DNA of 41,476 nucleotides, taken from the NCBI GenBank assembly GCA_020049015.1, contig JAIFLP010000101.1, positions 1 through 41,476 of the forward strand. Direction: 5' to 3'. Position 1 is the first letter of the stretch. Every line of letters starts with the position of its first letter. A model generated the notes under the pieces. That model searched no databases. It saw only the letters and a list, made by a program, of their open reading frames with translations, and was not told the origin of the DNA. A program made the position numbers and the translations under genes. Positions 4,855 through 40,120 of the stretch are shown here, one piece after another. Source of the stretch: Bacteroidota bacterium. Lineage in GTDB: Bacteria > Bacteroidota > Bacteroidia > Bacteroidales > DTGW01.

Positions 4855-5286
4855 TTATTTTCCGGCCAGCAAGTCTGCCATATCCATTTTCTCAACTTTA
4901 CTCATGCCACTTATATCATCTAAGGCATGTTGAATTTTGGTTTTGAATTTCCAACAGGTCATTTGCCGCAACGATAGCTGGCGCGCAAATTCATAACTTG
5001 ACGTGGACGATTCTCCTTTGCATACTTGCCAGGCAATATAAAAGGCTTTGTGCATTGGAAATTTACAGTTATGAAATAAGGTATGTGCTGAGGCCGACTC
5101 TTCCGTCTTGCATTTGGTGCAACGACGGGAATAAGGCGATTTACCAGAGCAAGAATTAAGATTCCCACATTTCTTACATTCAAAACCATTTTCCCATTTA
5201 ACTTTAGCTAAAAATGCCAGACAATAATCATCATCCTGAAACAATCTATCCAACTCTTCTTTGCTCAATTCGTTTTTGAAAATCAT
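4855..5286 (-). CDS. Stand-alone IS1595-type transposase zinc-ribbon protein, without a DDE domain
   Basis: CKKCGNLNS...RRCTKCKTEESASAHTLFHNCKFPMHKAFYIAWQV resembles the zinc ribbon and following helices of IS1595-family transposases; the ORF stops at 143 aa before a catalytic domain. Confidence 0.72.
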   Translation of the reverse strand: MIFKNELSKEELDRLFQDDDYCLAFLAKVKWENGFECKKCGNLNSCSGKSPYSRRCTKCKTEESASAHTLFHNCKFPMHKAFYIAWQVCKGESSTSSYEFARQLSLRQMTCWKFKTKIQHALDDISGMSKVEKMDMADLLAGK

Positions 5287-5401: not shown

Positions 5402-5638
5402 ATGGGAGCTTCTTGTGATGTTAAGAATAAGCCAGTTGGTGTTAAAGAATTATTGAGATCATGGTATTTTTGGAAACCAGTTTTAGGTATCTTTGTAGGC
5501 GCGATTGCTGGTTTTGCATATTATTATTTTGTGGGCTGTAAATCAGGTACTTGTCCGATAAATTCAAACCCATATATAAGCACAGCTTGGGGCGGATTAT
5601 TGGGTTACTTTTTGGTGAGCCCTTGTAAATCGTGTTAA
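5402..5638 (+). CDS. Small membrane protein, DUF6132-like, with Cys residues (CKSGTC, C-terminal CKSC)
   Basis: KPVLGIFVGAIAGFAYYYFVGCKSGTCPINSNPYISTAWGGLLGYFLVSPCKSC; two TM segments. Confidence 0.72.
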   Translation: MGASCDVKNKPVGVKELLRSWYFWKPVLGIFVGAIAGFAYYYFVGCKSGTCPINSNPYISTAWGGLLGYFLVSPCKSC

Positions 5639-5649
5639 ATTGATTTGGT

Positions 5650-6300
5650 ATGATGGTAGAAGAAATAAATAAAAGGTATTCTGGTTTGGCCGAAAGCAAT
5701 TGTTGTCTTTCATGTGGCGGGGCTGTAAATTATGTTGAGGCGCAGAAAGGTGAAGTATGTGTTGATTTGGGTTGCGGTAGAGGCAATGACGTACTGCGTT
5801 TAGCTGAAAAGGTTGGTGACGAAGGCTTTGTATATGGAATTGATATTTCAGATGGAATGATAACTAAGGCTCGTGAAAATGCGGCTAAATTTGATGTGAA
5901 AAACGTTGAATTTATTCAATGCGAACTCGAAAAGCTTACAATACCCCAAGGAAGAGCAAATGTTGTTATTTCAAATTGTGTACTGAATCATGCTTCGAAT
6001 AAACAAAAGGTTTGGCATGAAATTTATAAGGTATTAAAATATGGTGGCAGGTTTATCGTTAGTGATATATACTCAATTGAGCCTGTACCTGCAGAATTCC
6101 GCAACGATCCTTCTGCAGTTGCCGAATGCTGGGCTGGTGCTGTTCCTAAAGAAGAATATTTATTAAATATTCAAAGGGCTGGTTTTATAGATGTTGAAAT
6201 TATTGAAGAATCCCAGCCTTATCAGAAAGGGAAAATCCATGTTGCCAGTTTTACAGTAGCAGGTTTTAAGCCTAAAGGCGTTTGTTGTTGTTCAGTATAA
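5650..6300 (+). CDS. ArsM-like SAM-dependent methyltransferase
   Basis: N-terminal NCCLSCGG before the SAM motif VCVDLGCGRGNDVL, VYGIDISDGMITKARENA, VISNCVLNHASNKQKVWHEIYKVLKYGGRFIVSDI; C-terminal CCCS. Confidence 0.82.
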   Translation: MMVEEINKRYSGLAESNCCLSCGGAVNYVEAQKGEVCVDLGCGRGNDVLRLAEKVGDEGFVYGIDISDGMITKARENAAKFDVKNVEFIQCELEKLTIPQGRANVVISNCVLNHASNKQKVWHEIYKVLKYGGRFIVSDIYSIEPVPAEFRNDPSAVAECWAGAVPKEEYLLNIQRAGFIDVEIIEESQPYQKGKIHVASFTVAGFKPKGVCCCSV

Positions 6301-6315
6301 TTAATAATTGTTAAT

Positions 6316-6804
6316 ATGGATAAAAAGGTTTTTTTAGTATTAGTGGCATTTGCCTTTACAGTAACTGCCTGTCAGGCTCGCAGTGAAAAATCTGCTGCTG
6401 AAGAGTCTGCTGTGGTTAAAGAAGAAAACGCCGCTGGTTCTGTAATTTATTTAACTACAGCCCAGTTTAAACAAAAGGTATTCAACTATGATGTAAATAA
6501 GGAATGGAAATATGAAGGTGATTTGCCTTGTATTCTCGATTTTTATGCAGATTGGTGCGGACCTTGCCGAATGATTGCACCTACTTTGGAGCAATTGGCT
6601 AAAGAATATTCCGGTAAAATATATGTTTATAAAATTAATACCGATAAGGAAAAAGAATTAGCCCAGTATTTAGGGATTCAAAGCTTGCCTACCTTAGTAT
6701 TTGTGCCATTGAAAGGGGCTCCTCAGGTTTCAATGGGAGCAATGCCTAAGGAAACATTTGTAAAAACTATTAATGATGTAATGCTAAATAATAACAACAA
6801 ATAA
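6316..6804 (+). CDS. Thioredoxin-fold lipoprotein
   Basis: Lipobox-like signal MDKKVFLVLVAFAFTVTAC, then CILDFYADWCGPCRMIAPTLEQLAKEY and LPTLVFVP. Confidence 0.9.
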   Translation: MDKKVFLVLVAFAFTVTACQARSEKSAAEESAVVKEENAAGSVIYLTTAQFKQKVFNYDVNKEWKYEGDLPCILDFYADWCGPCRMIAPTLEQLAKEYSGKIYVYKINTDKEKELAQYLGIQSLPTLVFVPLKGAPQVSMGAMPKETFVKTINDVMLNNNNK

Positions 6805-6820
6805 TTTAAATCTAATAATT

Positions 6821-6919
6821 ATGAAAACGTTAATTAAAAAACAAAAGGAAAACCGCAAAGAAAAGGTGGCTCAATGCTGTGCTAAAACATCAAAAACTGT
6901 AGCTGGTTGTCACGACTAG
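6821..6919 (+). CDS. Putative RiPP-type precursor peptide (32 aa): MKTLIKKQKENRKEKVAQCCAKTSKTVAGCHD
   Basis: Read directly from sequence (ATG 6821, TAG 6917-6919); not in the supplied ORF track. Charged N-terminal half, Cys-containing C-terminal segment, 1 nt before a radical SAM/SPASM gene. Confidence 0.7.
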   Translation: MKTLIKKQKENRKEKVAQCCAKTSKTVAGCHD

Positions 6920-6920
6920 T

Positions 6921-8225
6921 ATGTACTTTTCAAGATATAATATATTTTCGAAAGTTAGAGATTCAGATAATTATTTTATTCTGAATCTCCTTTCAGGAAA
7001 TGCAGATATATTAAGTCCTGAGGAAGCTAGTTTAATAAGCAGTAAGCAATACGATAAGTTACCTAAGCTTGTAGAATTGGGTTATTATGTTGATGAACAA
7101 CTGGAAAAAAAGTTGTTCATGAATAAGTATCTCGACTTTATTGATGAACGCGATAAAGATGAAGTTCAATTGTTTTTTGTAACTAATTATTCTTGCAATT
7201 TTGCTTGTTTCTATTGTTATCAGGATGAATATGAGGCCGCTGTTACAAGTCTTACAACCGATGTGATTGATTCATGTTTTGAATACGTAAGAAACAATTT
7301 TGCAGGTAAGAGATGCTATTTTACTATTTTTGGAGGTGAGCCTTTACTTCCTTCTGAAAGTCAAATGTCAGTGATTCAGTACTTTCTTGAGAAAGCTAAA
7401 GTTGCCGGAATAGAAACATGTATTGTTACCAATGGTTATTCTCTTTCTAATTACATCCCTATATTAAAGGATATGATGATAAGAGAAATTCAGGTTACAC
7501 TTGATGGAACTGAAGCCATACATAATGAAAGAAGATATTTAAAAAGCAAAAAAGGAACATTTAACGAAATTGTAAGTGGAATTGATTCTTGCTTGGCTGC
7601 AAAAATTCCTGTGAATCTTAGGATGGTAATTGATAAACTGAATGTTGATAATTTACCTGAATTCTCTGAATTTGCTATCCAGAAAGCATGGACTAAAAAT
7701 CCGCTTTTTAAAACGCAATTGGGTAGAAATTATGAGCTTCATCACTGCCAGTCTTTAAAAGACAAGCTTTTTTCTAGAATAGAAATGTATACGCATATTT
7801 ATCATCTATTACTTCAATATCCTCATATAGCAGAATTCTATAAACCAGCTTTTTCAGTTTCTAAGTTTGTATTTGAACATGGCGATTTACCGGATCCATT
7901 ATTTGATTCGTGCCCCGCATGTAAAACAGAATGGGCTTTTGATTATACCGGAAAGATTTATCCTTGTACAGCTACTGTCGGAAAAAAAGGTGAAGAATTG
8001 GGAAGTTTTTATCCAACAGTTAGCTTGAATCAAGCTAAGGTTGATGATTGGATCTCAAGAGATGTTACTTCTATCAGTGAATGTAAATCATGCGAGTTGC
8101 AATTAGCATGCGGTGGAGGATGCGGCTCTGTTGCTAAAAATAATAAAGGTTCTGTATGCAATTCTGATTGCAGACCAGTAAAAGAATTATTAGAAATGGG
8201 TTTCGCTTATTATTTTAAAGAATAG
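6921..8225 (+). CDS. Radical SAM/SPASM peptide maturase
   Basis: CxxxCxxC motif in TNYSCNFACFYCYQDEY; FTIFGGEPLL; C-terminal SPASM-type Cys cluster CPACKTEWAFDYTGKIYPC...CKSCELQLACGGGCGS...CNSDC; N-terminal extension before the radical SAM core. Confidence 0.92.
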   Translation: MYFSRYNIFSKVRDSDNYFILNLLSGNADILSPEEASLISSKQYDKLPKLVELGYYVDEQLEKKLFMNKYLDFIDERDKDEVQLFFVTNYSCNFACFYCYQDEYEAAVTSLTTDVIDSCFEYVRNNFAGKRCYFTIFGGEPLLPSESQMSVIQYFLEKAKVAGIETCIVTNGYSLSNYIPILKDMMIREIQVTLDGTEAIHNERRYLKSKKGTFNEIVSGIDSCLAAKIPVNLRMVIDKLNVDNLPEFSEFAIQKAWTKNPLFKTQLGRNYELHHCQSLKDKLFSRIEMYTHIYHLLLQYPHIAEFYKPAFSVSKFVFEHGDLPDPLFDSCPACKTEWAFDYTGKIYPCTATVGKKGEELGSFYPTVSLNQAKVDDWISRDVTSISECKSCELQLACGGGCGSVAKNNKGSVCNSDCRPVKELLEMGFAYYFKE

Positions 8226-8246: not shown

Positions 8247-9515
8247 ATGAAAGAAATCAGTTCTTCCGATTTCGAATTGGAAGTGTTATCTCAAAGTGCT
8301 TGCGTTGTTGATTTTTATTCAACCGAGTGTCCACCATGTGAGGCAGTAGCACCTAAGTTTGAATCCTTACATAATTTATATGGTGAGCATGTTCATTTCG
8401 TTAAAATATTTCGCCAAGGAAATAAAGAATTGGCAACAAAATTAGGTGTTAGTTCATCACCTACTTTATTGTTTTATAAAAATGGAGTTAGAGTGGGTGA
8501 TCAATTAAGTGGAGGGGTTAAAAAGTCTGACATTATTAAAAATCTTGATTTACTTATTACTCCTGATGAAGTTGTGAAAATTAAATCGGGTATGAAGCCA
8601 AGTAATACCTCACACGATGTGGTAATTCTAGGAGCAGGTCCTGCGGCTTTAGCTGCCGGAATTTATCTCGCGCAAGCTAAAACTGATACTTTAATTATTG
8701 ATACTGCATTACCAGGAGGCCAGGTTTCAACTACCCATCAAGTTTCAAATTATCCTGGTTTTGAAGAGCCAATACAAGGATATATGTTAGGACATCACAT
8801 GTCAGAACAAGCAAAAAAAGCTGGGGTGAAGTTTAAAGTTGCAGTTGATGTTAGTCATGTTGATTTAATAAAAAAAGAAATTGTAATTGATGAATTTGAA
8901 ACAATAAAGGCAAAAACAATTATTATTGCAACTGGTGCTTCACCCCGCAAGCTAAATATCCCAGGAGAAAAAGAGTTCAAGGGTAAAGGCTTGTCATATT
9001 GTGCTACCTGCGATGCCAAATATTTTCAAGATAAAGAGGTAATTGTTATAGGCGGTGGTAATTCTGCAGTGGAGGAATCAGATTTTATTGCTCGTTTTGC
9101 TTCCAAAATAACTATGGTACATCAATTTGATACCTTAACTGCAAATAAAGAAGCACAGGAGAAGATCTTGAATAATCCTAAAGTTAAAGTATTATTTCAA
9201 CATGAGCCACGCGCCTTTGCGAAGGAAGGCGATAAGATGGTTGTAACAATTGAAGACTTGTTAACTCACGAAACTAAGAAAATCGCTGCCGATGGAGTGT
9301 TTATTTTTGTTGGGATGTCGCCCAATCTCGATATCTTTAAAGAAGACCTGCAAAAAGACAAATGGGGTTATATTCTAACTGATGAAGACATGCATACTAA
9401 TATTAAAGGTGTGTTTGCTATTGGGGATGTAATCAGTAAAAAGTATCGCCAGATTACTACCGCAGTTGCCGATGGAACCATAGCTTCTATTGTAATTGCT
9501 AAAGAGCTGGGATAA
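8247..9515 (+). CDS. Thioredoxin–thioredoxin reductase fusion (Trx N-terminal, TrxB-like C-terminal)
   Basis: Residues ~1-110: VVDFYSTECPPCEAVAPKFESL (CPPC). From ~122: DVVILGAGPAALAAGIYLAQA, CATCDAKYF redox motif, VIGGGNSAVEE, GVFAIGDV. Confidence 0.92.
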   Translation: MKEISSSDFELEVLSQSACVVDFYSTECPPCEAVAPKFESLHNLYGEHVHFVKIFRQGNKELATKLGVSSSPTLLFYKNGVRVGDQLSGGVKKSDIIKNLDLLITPDEVVKIKSGMKPSNTSHDVVILGAGPAALAAGIYLAQAKTDTLIIDTALPGGQVSTTHQVSNYPGFEEPIQGYMLGHHMSEQAKKAGVKFKVAVDVSHVDLIKKEIVIDEFETIKAKTIIIATGASPRKLNIPGEKEFKGKGLSYCATCDAKYFQDKEVIVIGGGNSAVEESDFIARFASKITMVHQFDTLTANKEAQEKILNNPKVKVLFQHEPRAFAKEGDKMVVTIEDLLTHETKKIAADGVFIFVGMSPNLDIFKEDLQKDKWGYILTDEDMHTNIKGVFAIGDVISKKYRQITTAVADGTIASIVIAKELG

Positions 9516-38151: not shown

Positions 38152-38182
38152 TAACCATTGTGTAAGGTTAAGTAATTTGGTT

Positions 38183-39421
38183 ATGAAAGAATATTTAACA
38201 CTGTCTGAAGTAGCAGAATTTGTAGGTAAGAGTAAGGAAACTTTAAGAAGATGGGACAGGGAAGGTAAATTAACAGCTGTTCGTGAACCTATGAGTAATT
38301 ATAGGGTTTATAAACGAGACCAAATTGAAATTTTTTTTAAAGAATTTACAAATTTCAAAATCCAAGCATCAGACCTTAACTATGTTGTACCAGAAAATAA
38401 ATATACCGTATTGGAGTTATTTGCAGGCGCTGGAGGATTAGCTGTTGGTTTGGAAAAAGCAGGATTAAAATGTGTTGCCTTAAATGAAATTGATAAATGG
38501 GCTTGTGAAACATTGCGTACAAATCGTCCTAATTGGAAAGTTTTTGAAGGAGATATTAAGCTGTTTGATTTTTCAGCTTACCATAATAAAATAGATGTTG
38601 TAACTGGAGGTTTCCCATGTCAAGCATTTAGCTATGCTGGCAAAAAACTTGGCTTAAACGATGCACGAGGCACTTTATTTTATGAATTTGCAAGGGTAGT
38701 TAAAGAAGTTAATCCCCCTATATGTATTGGTGAGAATGTTAGAGGCTTATTAAGTCATGAAAATGGCAAAACATTACAAGGCATGATATCTATATTGGAC
38801 GAAATTGGTTATAATGTTGTTCCATATCAAGTTTTAAAAGCCATAAACTATAATGTGCCTCAAAAGCGAGAACGGTTAATAATAGTGGGAATTAGAAAAG
38901 ATATCAATACTAGATATGAATATCCTATTCCAAGTAAAAAAGTTTATAATCTTTATGATGCTCTGAAAAAGGGCGAACTATTTGATTGCAACGTTCCTTT
39001 TTCGGAAGGAGCAAAGTATCCTAATAGTAAGAAAAAAGTATTAGATTTAGTGCCTCAGAAGGGCTATTGGCGAGATTTACCCGTAGAAATACAGAAAGAA
39101 TTTATGGGTCAAAGTTTTTATTTGGGGGGTGGCAAAACAGGAATGGCTCGCAGAATTGGATGGGATGAGCCTTGTTTAACTTTAACTTGTAGTCCTGCTC
39201 AAAAACAAACGGAAAGATGTCATCCAGAGGAGACACGTCCTTTTACAGTTAGAGAATATGCAAGAATCCAAACTTTCCCAGATGATTGGACTTTTTCGGG
39301 TTCTACAGCTCAACAATACAAACAAATAGGAAACGCTGTTCCTGTTAATTTAGGTAAAGAAGTAGGATTCTCAATCGTGAAATTTCTAAACAATTATTAC
39401 CGTGAATTAAAAATGAAATAA
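38183..39421 (+). CDS. DNA (cytosine-5-)-methyltransferase with N-terminal MerR-like helix-turn-helix
   Basis: N-term LTLSEVAEFVGKSKETLRRWDREGKLTAVREPMSNYRVYKRDQIEIFF; MTase motifs VLELFAGAGGLAVGL, GGFPCQAFSYAG, IGENVRGLL, YNVPQKRERLIIVGI, QIGNAVPVNLGKEV. Start set to ATG 38183 (listed start is TTG 38177). Confidence 0.95.
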   Translation: MKEYLTLSEVAEFVGKSKETLRRWDREGKLTAVREPMSNYRVYKRDQIEIFFKEFTNFKIQASDLNYVVPENKYTVLELFAGAGGLAVGLEKAGLKCVALNEIDKWACETLRTNRPNWKVFEGDIKLFDFSAYHNKIDVVTGGFPCQAFSYAGKKLGLNDARGTLFYEFARVVKEVNPPICIGENVRGLLSHENGKTLQGMISILDEIGYNVVPYQVLKAINYNVPQKRERLIIVGIRKDINTRYEYPIPSKKVYNLYDALKKGELFDCNVPFSEGAKYPNSKKKVLDLVPQKGYWRDLPVEIQKEFMGQSFYLGGGKTGMARRIGWDEPCLTLTCSPAQKQTERCHPEETRPFTVREYARIQTFPDDWTFSGSTAQQYKQIGNAVPVNLGKEVGFSIVKFLNNYYRELKMK

Positions 39422-40120
39422 GGGCGAGTACCTTATTTCGTTTGCCAATTCTTCACATCCCTTTTTAAAGAAGTCTTTAGTATTAAGGTTTGCAATACAT
39501 TCATGCAGTGCAATAACCAATTGGTCATAGAAATTCGAAAAACCTGTAATTCTATGCCAAAAATCACGACCAATAAGAACAGGATGAATTTTATCGATTA
39601 TTTTGTAATGCATACTTAATTCTGATTGCTCGCCATAAAGAACACCTACTATAAAGTCAGTATTGTTAATACCTATAAGTGCCTTATTCGTTCTAGCCAA
39701 ATTTATTGTATCGGTAAATTTTTTAATTAAAGGGTTTACATCTTCTGAATTAATAGTATTGGGTCCTGATTTTAATTGACACCATTTTTTTCTACCATCA
39801 ATCTGATCAACAAATTCAATATCCATTCCTTTTATCATAGAACCTTGAGCAATACCAAGTTCAACGAACATGTCCTGAATTCTAGTGCCAAATGAGGTAT
39901 TAATGGAGGTTCCTAAAACTCTAGGATAAAACAATGCTTTTGCTACGCCTTCGGGACTATATTTATCATCCAATACCTTAGATAAATACTTTACAACTAT
40001 TGGATTGATGTTATAAGATTTAAGTTTTGTATGGTTTTTAAGTGATGAGTTTATATGTTGCTGAAATATATTCTTTTCAAAATAGACTACAATAATTTTA
40101 ATAAGTTCCTTTTCAGTCAT
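39407..40120 (-). CDS. PmeII-like Type II restriction endonuclease
   Basis: YNINPIVVKYLSKVL..SPEGVAKALFYPRVLGTSINTSFGTRIQ...GMDIEFVDQIDGRKKWCQLKSGPNTIN (PD-(D/E)xK-like D...QLK); tail-to-tail with the m5C MTase. Confidence 0.85.
   Translation of the reverse strand: MTEKELIKIIVVYFEKNIFQQHINSSLKNHTKLKSYNINPIVVKYLSKVLDDKYSPEGVAKALFYPRVLGTSINTSFGTRIQDMFVELGIAQGSMIKGMDIEFVDQIDGRKKWCQLKSGPNTINSEDVNPLIKKFTDTINLARTNKALIGINNTDFIVGVLYGEQSELSMHYKIIDKIHPVLIGRDFWHRITGFSNFYDQLVIALHECIANLNTKDFFKKGCEELANEIRYSPLFHF

Follow-up and report, generated by a model that had tools for sequence, protein, structure and literature searches.

A 32-amino-acid open reading frame (ORF) was found directly upstream of a radical SAM/SPASM enzyme in the window, i.e. 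the whole stretch of 41,476 nucleotides of Bacteroidota DNA analysed here. It runs from the ATG at 6821 to the TAG at 6917-6919, and its product, MKTLIKKQKENRKEKVAQCCAKTSKTVAGCHD, contains the cysteines C19, C20 and C30. A single base, T 6920, separates its stop codon from the ATG of the radical SAM gene at 6921. The preliminary description had reported these coordinates, the 1-nt gap and a radical SAM neighbour with CxxxCxxC and SPASM cysteine clusters, all of which were confirmed in the sequence. Its pairing of peptide and maturase stood, but the unit proved larger: an ArsM-like methyltransferase, thioredoxins, a thioredoxin-thioredoxin reductase fusion and a DUF6132 protein had been missed. 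The features are as follows.

4855 to 5286, minus strand: IS1595-type zinc-ribbon protein, 143 aa, divergent, candidate regulator (PF12760)
5402 to 5638, plus strand: small membrane protein of the DUF6132 family that contains Cys pairs, a frequent accessory (PF19628 above cut-off)
5650 to 6300, plus strand: ArsM-like SAM methyltransferase of the cassette, 216 aa (phmmer 1e-22 to CmArsM)
6316 to 6804, plus strand: thioredoxin with lipoprotein-type signal, 162 aa (TIGR01068 above cut-off)
6821 to 6868, plus strand: putative precursor leader, residues 1-16, MKTLIKKQKENRKEKV, variable in length and sequence
6869 to 6916, plus strand: putative precursor core, residues 17-32, AQCCAKTSKTVAGCHD, of fixed length
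6921 to 8225, plus strand: radical SAM/SPASM maturase, 434 aa (Pfam Radical_SAM), orthologues 50-64% identical within the order
6921 to 7160, plus strand: RRE-like N-terminal region of the maturase, residues 1-80
7194 to 7217, plus strand: CxxxCxxC radical SAM motif (C92, C96, C99)
7911 to 8171, plus strand: SPASM Cys region (C331, C334, C349, C388, C391, C397, C401, C413, C417)
8247 to 9515, plus strand: thioredoxin::thioredoxin reductase (Trx::TrxR) fusion, 422 aa (PF00085 and PF07992)

The source genome is a 2.37-Mb draft in 197 contigs with one close maturase copy. Elsewhere in the window a type II restriction-modification pair was noted, spanning 38177-40120, in which the C5 cytosine methylase carries a fused MerR-like HTH and the convergent EcoO109I-type endonuclease gene overlaps the end of the methylase gene.

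Conservation of the peptide was assessed at maturase loci from 12 of 99 order-level relatives and at 80 loci from a GTDB-based collection, the latter mostly Bacteroidales drafts together with records titled Ignavibacteria, Kapaibacterium, Spirochaetes and Elusimicrobia. Exactly one small ORF ending in A-Q-C-C-A-K-x-S-x4-G-C-H-D, with the stop codon directly after D, was present at 89 of the 92 loci. The exceptions were L048, where the contig was cut at the maturase, and L019 and L022, whose genomes had the peptide at another site, directly following the methyltransferase gene. Over 108 distinct loci the core followed the consensus A-[QL]-C-C-A-K-x-[ST]-x-x-x-x-G-C-H-D, with ten invariant positions, no insertion or deletion and the stop right after D; part of these loci had been collected via the motif, which partly predetermines C, C, A, K, [ST], G, C, H and D. 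In the set of 89, selection had imposed neither the fixed length nor A17, Q18, S24 or D32. Furthermore, in a motif-independent search that asked only for two or more Cys in an ORF upstream of orthologous maturases, most loci gave the same C-terminal sequence. In the set of 89, synonymous change was near saturation (pS 0.81) and amino-acid change was low (pN 0.11), indicating strong coding constraint. Neither of the two sequence-level refutations named in the preliminary description came about, since homologous maturase loci do have the peptide and its coding sequence is constrained. The leader varied in length and sequence but kept its start, M-K-S/T/N-L/V-I/V-K-K.

These results agreed with a division into leader and core near residue 16, as had been proposed, since the leader varies and the core is fixed. 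The three cysteines singled out earlier were all conserved across loci; A17, A21, K22, G29, H31 and D32, which are also invariant, had been overlooked. The one maturase genome among the 12 without the standard motif contained a variant peptide, ALCCAKSSKNVPGCHD. No selenocysteine form of the core (UGA read as U) was found among the collected loci. In a peptide from the spirochaete phylum (L192) the AQCCA unit was repeated (MKTLIKKKSAAQCCATAQCCAKISSIVAGCHD). No model covered the peptide in NCBIfam and Pfam searches, and Pfam Trp_leader2 gave a weak match (E 0.21). The earlier suggestion of a short Cys peptide, hitherto undescribed and with a SPASM maturase as its partner, was borne out, and the 32-aa ORF is a real gene and part of a new system.

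A DNA pattern search of the 99 relatives found the motif in 12 genomes; the maturase was present in 12, with 11 common to both. In a wider draw the motif was present in 48/393 order-level genomes, and a reversed control pattern in 0/393. When motif-bearing genomes were tested for the maturase, 36/37 were positive. Of the genomes sampled from the phylum to which the Spirochaetes locus belongs, 17/149 carried the motif, two of them (G894 and G930) on a single multi-megabase contig; nearly all of the 16 loci read from this phylum had the same genes and an unchanged core, with maturase identity down to 39-43%. The cassette methyltransferase-peptide-maturase-Trx::TrxR recurred in Bacteroidota, Spirochaetota and Elusimicrobia, and the core showed almost no change across many environmental bacteria, which belong to two phyla at least. 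Viral contigs gave no match to the peptide motif and plasmids none to the maturase. One genome, G002 (99% complete), had an intact peptide without the maturase and without the cassette methyltransferase. There the peptide (L101, 7850-8160) lay beside another class I methyltransferase, a DsrE-like protein and Hdr-like genes. In G710 a second peptide copy (L161, contig 7) was located between YgaP-like TM and DUF302 genes, away from the maturase. In view of G002 and the extra copy in G710, the peptide may also act unmodified in some cells.

The usual gene order was [zinc-ribbon, divergent]-DUF6132-ArsM-like methyltransferase-(thioredoxin lipoprotein)-peptide-maturase-Trx::TrxR-(DUF302). Among 57 loci with full flanks, the maturase was found in 54, the methyltransferase in 52, the thioredoxin reductase in 48, a separate thioredoxin in 30, and DUF6132 and DUF302 in 24 each. 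The distance matrices of maturase, methyltransferase and thioredoxin reductase were correlated at r 0.86-0.88, with 0/500 permutations as high, in a comparison confined to these three cassette genes; this points to their inheritance as a unit. The zinc-ribbon gene occupied the same divergent position in 23/92 loci and did not have the full transposase part; its product is possibly a domesticated regulator of the system. The DUF6132 protein has a CxxC tail and a GCxSGxCPI motif, which by eye looks like the Cys motif found in sulfur transporters of the YeeE type. A minority of loci had neighbours of sulfur/redox type, namely DUF1847, an SQR-like flavoprotein, YgaP-like TM, OsmC, YeeE-type Sulf_transp and methionine gamma-lyase. 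No dedicated exporter or leader peptidase, which a secreted bacteriocin system would have, recurred among the cassette neighbours, and ars-type transporters or regulators were absent from the recurring families among 107 flanking proteins.

The CxxxCxxC motif of the maturase was invariant over 39 orthologues, as were the SPASM cysteines save C334, kept in at least 90%, and C413. C276 and the stretch GRNYELH were likewise invariant. No NCBIfam model claimed the maturase, all scores being far below the cut-offs. The best full-length match was CefB (NF038107), at 146 bits where the cut-off is 600, followed by TIGR04463, Clo7bot and PapB. The precursor here does not have the Cys-every-fifth pattern but a CC-x9-C spacing, which together with the score places the pair outside CefA/CefB. 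The model for PapB-type maturases (NF047865) matched the radical SAM and SPASM parts with 114 bits, below the cut-off of 340. PapB joins Cys to Asp/Glu, and the core here likewise offers Cys and Asp in its C-H-D end; these are not, however, in the Cys-x3-Asp spacing of PapB.

A PDB sequence search with the maturase returned weak matches only. In the AF2 model (pLDDT 83.6 overall) the top PDB fold match was the ranthipeptide maturase CteB, nearly full length (5why/5wgg, E about 1e-17, 16% identity), and then anSME, SuiB, ChlB and TigE. Residues 1-80, named beforehand as the place to look for an RRE, formed three strands followed by helices (block pLDDT 74-94), an arrangement known from RRE domains. 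The region is RRE-like in the model, and CteB is the top fold match; Pfam PqqD did not match any of 39 family members, so the RRE assignment is a putative, structural one. CteB/CteA, a ranthipeptide/SCIFF pair, likewise combines a SPASM enzyme having an N-terminal RRE-like region with an adjacent short Cys peptide. However, SCIFF precursors have six Cys, compared with three conserved here, and the core differs; the maturase scored 66.5 bits to TIGR03974 against a cut-off of 425, which places the system outside SCIFF. A short leader/core precursor beside a modifying enzyme, the usual arrangement of a RiPP, was thus found, and the peptide is very likely the substrate of the adjacent maturase. 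We rate precursor and maturase as a new radical-SAM RiPP family, and no description of their gene setting was found in the libraries and papers searched. The searched literature held nothing relevant on the peptide, on its gene set or on DUF6132, and the radical-SAM RiPP atlas of Clark and Seyedsayamdost (2022) may list the cluster.

When the cassette methyltransferase (METHYLTRANSFERASE) was aligned with CmArsM, its C22, C110 and C160 corresponded to Cys72, Cys174 and Cys224, the As(III) ligands required for methylation (PMC3877260). Among methyltransferase sequences with letters at these positions, the three were kept in 95/95, 99/100 and 100/100, respectively. The enzyme has 216 aa, about 50 aa of ArsM being absent at the N-terminus and the C-terminal part missing as well; it has a CCLSCGGA motif and a Cys-rich tail. 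It scored 193.6 bits to PRK11873, below the curated cut-off of 263; it therefore has the three As(III)-ligand cysteines of ArsM but neither the curated score nor the canonical length. Within the 99 relatives, this subfamily (45-65% identity) occurred in exactly the same 12 genomes as the maturase. Canonical-length ArsM (~270 aa, 34-41% identity) formed a separate set, divided from it by a wide score gap and coexisting with it in 5/12 maturase genomes. The shared distribution, apart from canonical ArsM, indicates that the methyltransferase is a dedicated cassette partner. It adjoined the peptide even where the maturase lay elsewhere (L102 and L103). In L153 and L154, lipoprotein and TonB-dependent receptor genes were located between methyltransferase and peptide, a hint that a related compound is taken up or released in this family. 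For the related AS3MT enzymes, in vitro support by thioredoxin and thioredoxin reductase and an ability to methylate Cys thiols are described (PMC9013690), which fits a metal(loid) role and a peptide-thiol role alike.

Several readings of the locus were weighed. That the ORF arose by chance or is a regulatory leader peptide would agree with its shortness and the weak Trp_leader2 match, but it is extremely improbable given the protein-level constraint, a core fixed over at least two phyla and a peptide that moves with the methyltransferase away from the maturase; on these conservation data, chance ORF and attenuator were rejected. A secreted sactipeptide/ranthipeptide-type bacteriocin or signal might be expected from a maturase with its nearest fold in CteB and its nearest NCBIfam models among RiPP maturases. 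A core that stays invariant while the leader varies is the opposite of most toxin families, however, and no exporter, peptidase or immunity gene recurred, so this reading is very unlikely and was rejected on account of the missing exporter/protease and the invariant core. The core idea of the preliminary description is supported, but the invariant core and absent exporter favour a cofactor-like role over an ordinary sactipeptide or ranthipeptide product. Alternatively, the peptide could stay unmodified as a metal-binding mini-chaperone for the methyltransferase, while the SPASM enzyme modifies another target, e.g. the methyltransferase. The intact peptide without maturase in G002 and the tightest tie of the peptide, that to the methyltransferase, are in line with this, but maturase co-occurrence (36/37 and 11/12), the conserved leader start, the RRE-like domain and gene adjacency, all of them typical of a precursor and its maturase, make it unlikely.

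The remaining readings concern what the peptide does. It is possible, albeit doubtful, that the CC-x9-C peptide is a ribosomally made thiol carrier of As(III) or a similar soft element in place of glutathione, with the ArsM-like enzyme methylating it and thioredoxin/thioredoxin reductase giving electrons. All three As-ligand cysteines are conserved, these reductants are known for AS3MT (PMC9013690), and the adjacency of methyltransferase and peptide is the tightest link in the cassette. However, no ars transport or regulator genes recurred nearby, canonical ArsM was also present in 5/12 genomes, and the radical SAM step is left without a clear role. Short of probable but deserving consideration is a mature peptide that acts as a thiol/persulfide carrier in sulfide/methanethiol metabolism, the methyltransferase S-methylating the peptide or peptide-bound sulfur. 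The neighbours DUF302 (24/57), DUF1847, SQR-like, YgaP-like TM, OsmC, YeeE and methionine gamma-lyase, the DsrE-like and Hdr-like genes beside the G002 peptide, and the ability of an ArsM homologue to methylate Cys (PMC9013690) argue for it. Such neighbours were found in a minority of loci, though, and were missing from most spirochaete loci, and full retention of the As site is left unexplained. We give much the same weight to the sulfur/redox role as to the metal(loid) role.

The fixed core over such distances suggests that function demands one definite chemical structure, as it does for PQQ or mycofactocin, rather than a variable antibiotic. PQQ and mycofactocin are peptide-derived redox cofactors whose systems have an invariant C-terminal core, a radical SAM maturase with an RRE, a dedicated oxidoreductase and no known exporter. 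Their precursor sequences are unrelated to the one described here, their models do not claim the maturase, and a cofactor role here is putative. Judged by such comparison, an invariant core, variable leader, dedicated reductase and absence of export would match peptide-derived cofactors better than antibiotics.

Taken jointly, the data make it likely that the ORF encodes the precursor of a new radical-SAM-modified peptide family whose mature product is an intracellular cofactor or carrier. The RRE-like N-terminal domain of the SPASM enzyme would most likely bind the basic leader M-K-S/T-L-I/V-K-K, and the enzyme would act on AQCCAKxSxxxxGCHD, the invariant core, probably forming a thioether or related bond at one Cys or several; K, S, H or D of the core are possible sites. 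The product would be an intracellular thiol/His peptide serving partner enzymes as cofactor or carrier, rather than a secreted antibiotic. Its partner would be the ArsM-derived methyltransferase, which retains three soft-metal(loid) ligand cysteines, and the dedicated thioredoxin/thioredoxin reductase would reduce the thiols again. It is at most plausible that the methyltransferase receives from the peptide a thiol-bound group, be it As(III), another soft element or the peptide's own sulfur. The invariant core, the lack of a conserved exporter or protease and the three As(III)-ligand cysteines together suggest an intracellular, cofactor-like thiol peptide with a putative metal(loid)/thiol role. 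Counting against this best explanation, thioether formation would consume thiols needed for metal(loid) binding; the G002 peptide occurs without the maturase, and the recurring neighbours are of sulfur/redox and not ars type. Only tentatively, then, do we picture a ribosomally made, radical-SAM-finished thiol peptide with its own thioredoxin reductase, serving as a dedicated cofactor from which an ArsM-derived methyltransferase takes over a soft element (As(III) or an analogue) or a peptide-bound sulfur. The literature searched held no precedent for a peptide cofactor in metal(loid) or thiol methylation.

The motif was present in 48/393 order-level and 17/149 spirochaete-phylum genomes, yet it has no curated model or description in the searchable literature; its carriers are largely uncultured bacteria. 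A near-constant core that travels with a radical SAM enzyme, an ArsM-like enzyme and a thioredoxin reductase looks like a part of cell chemistry and not an antibiotic. The combination of a radical SAM peptide maturase, a relative of arsenite methyltransferases and a private thioredoxin reductase offers a testable link between RiPPs and metal(loid)/sulfur metabolism.
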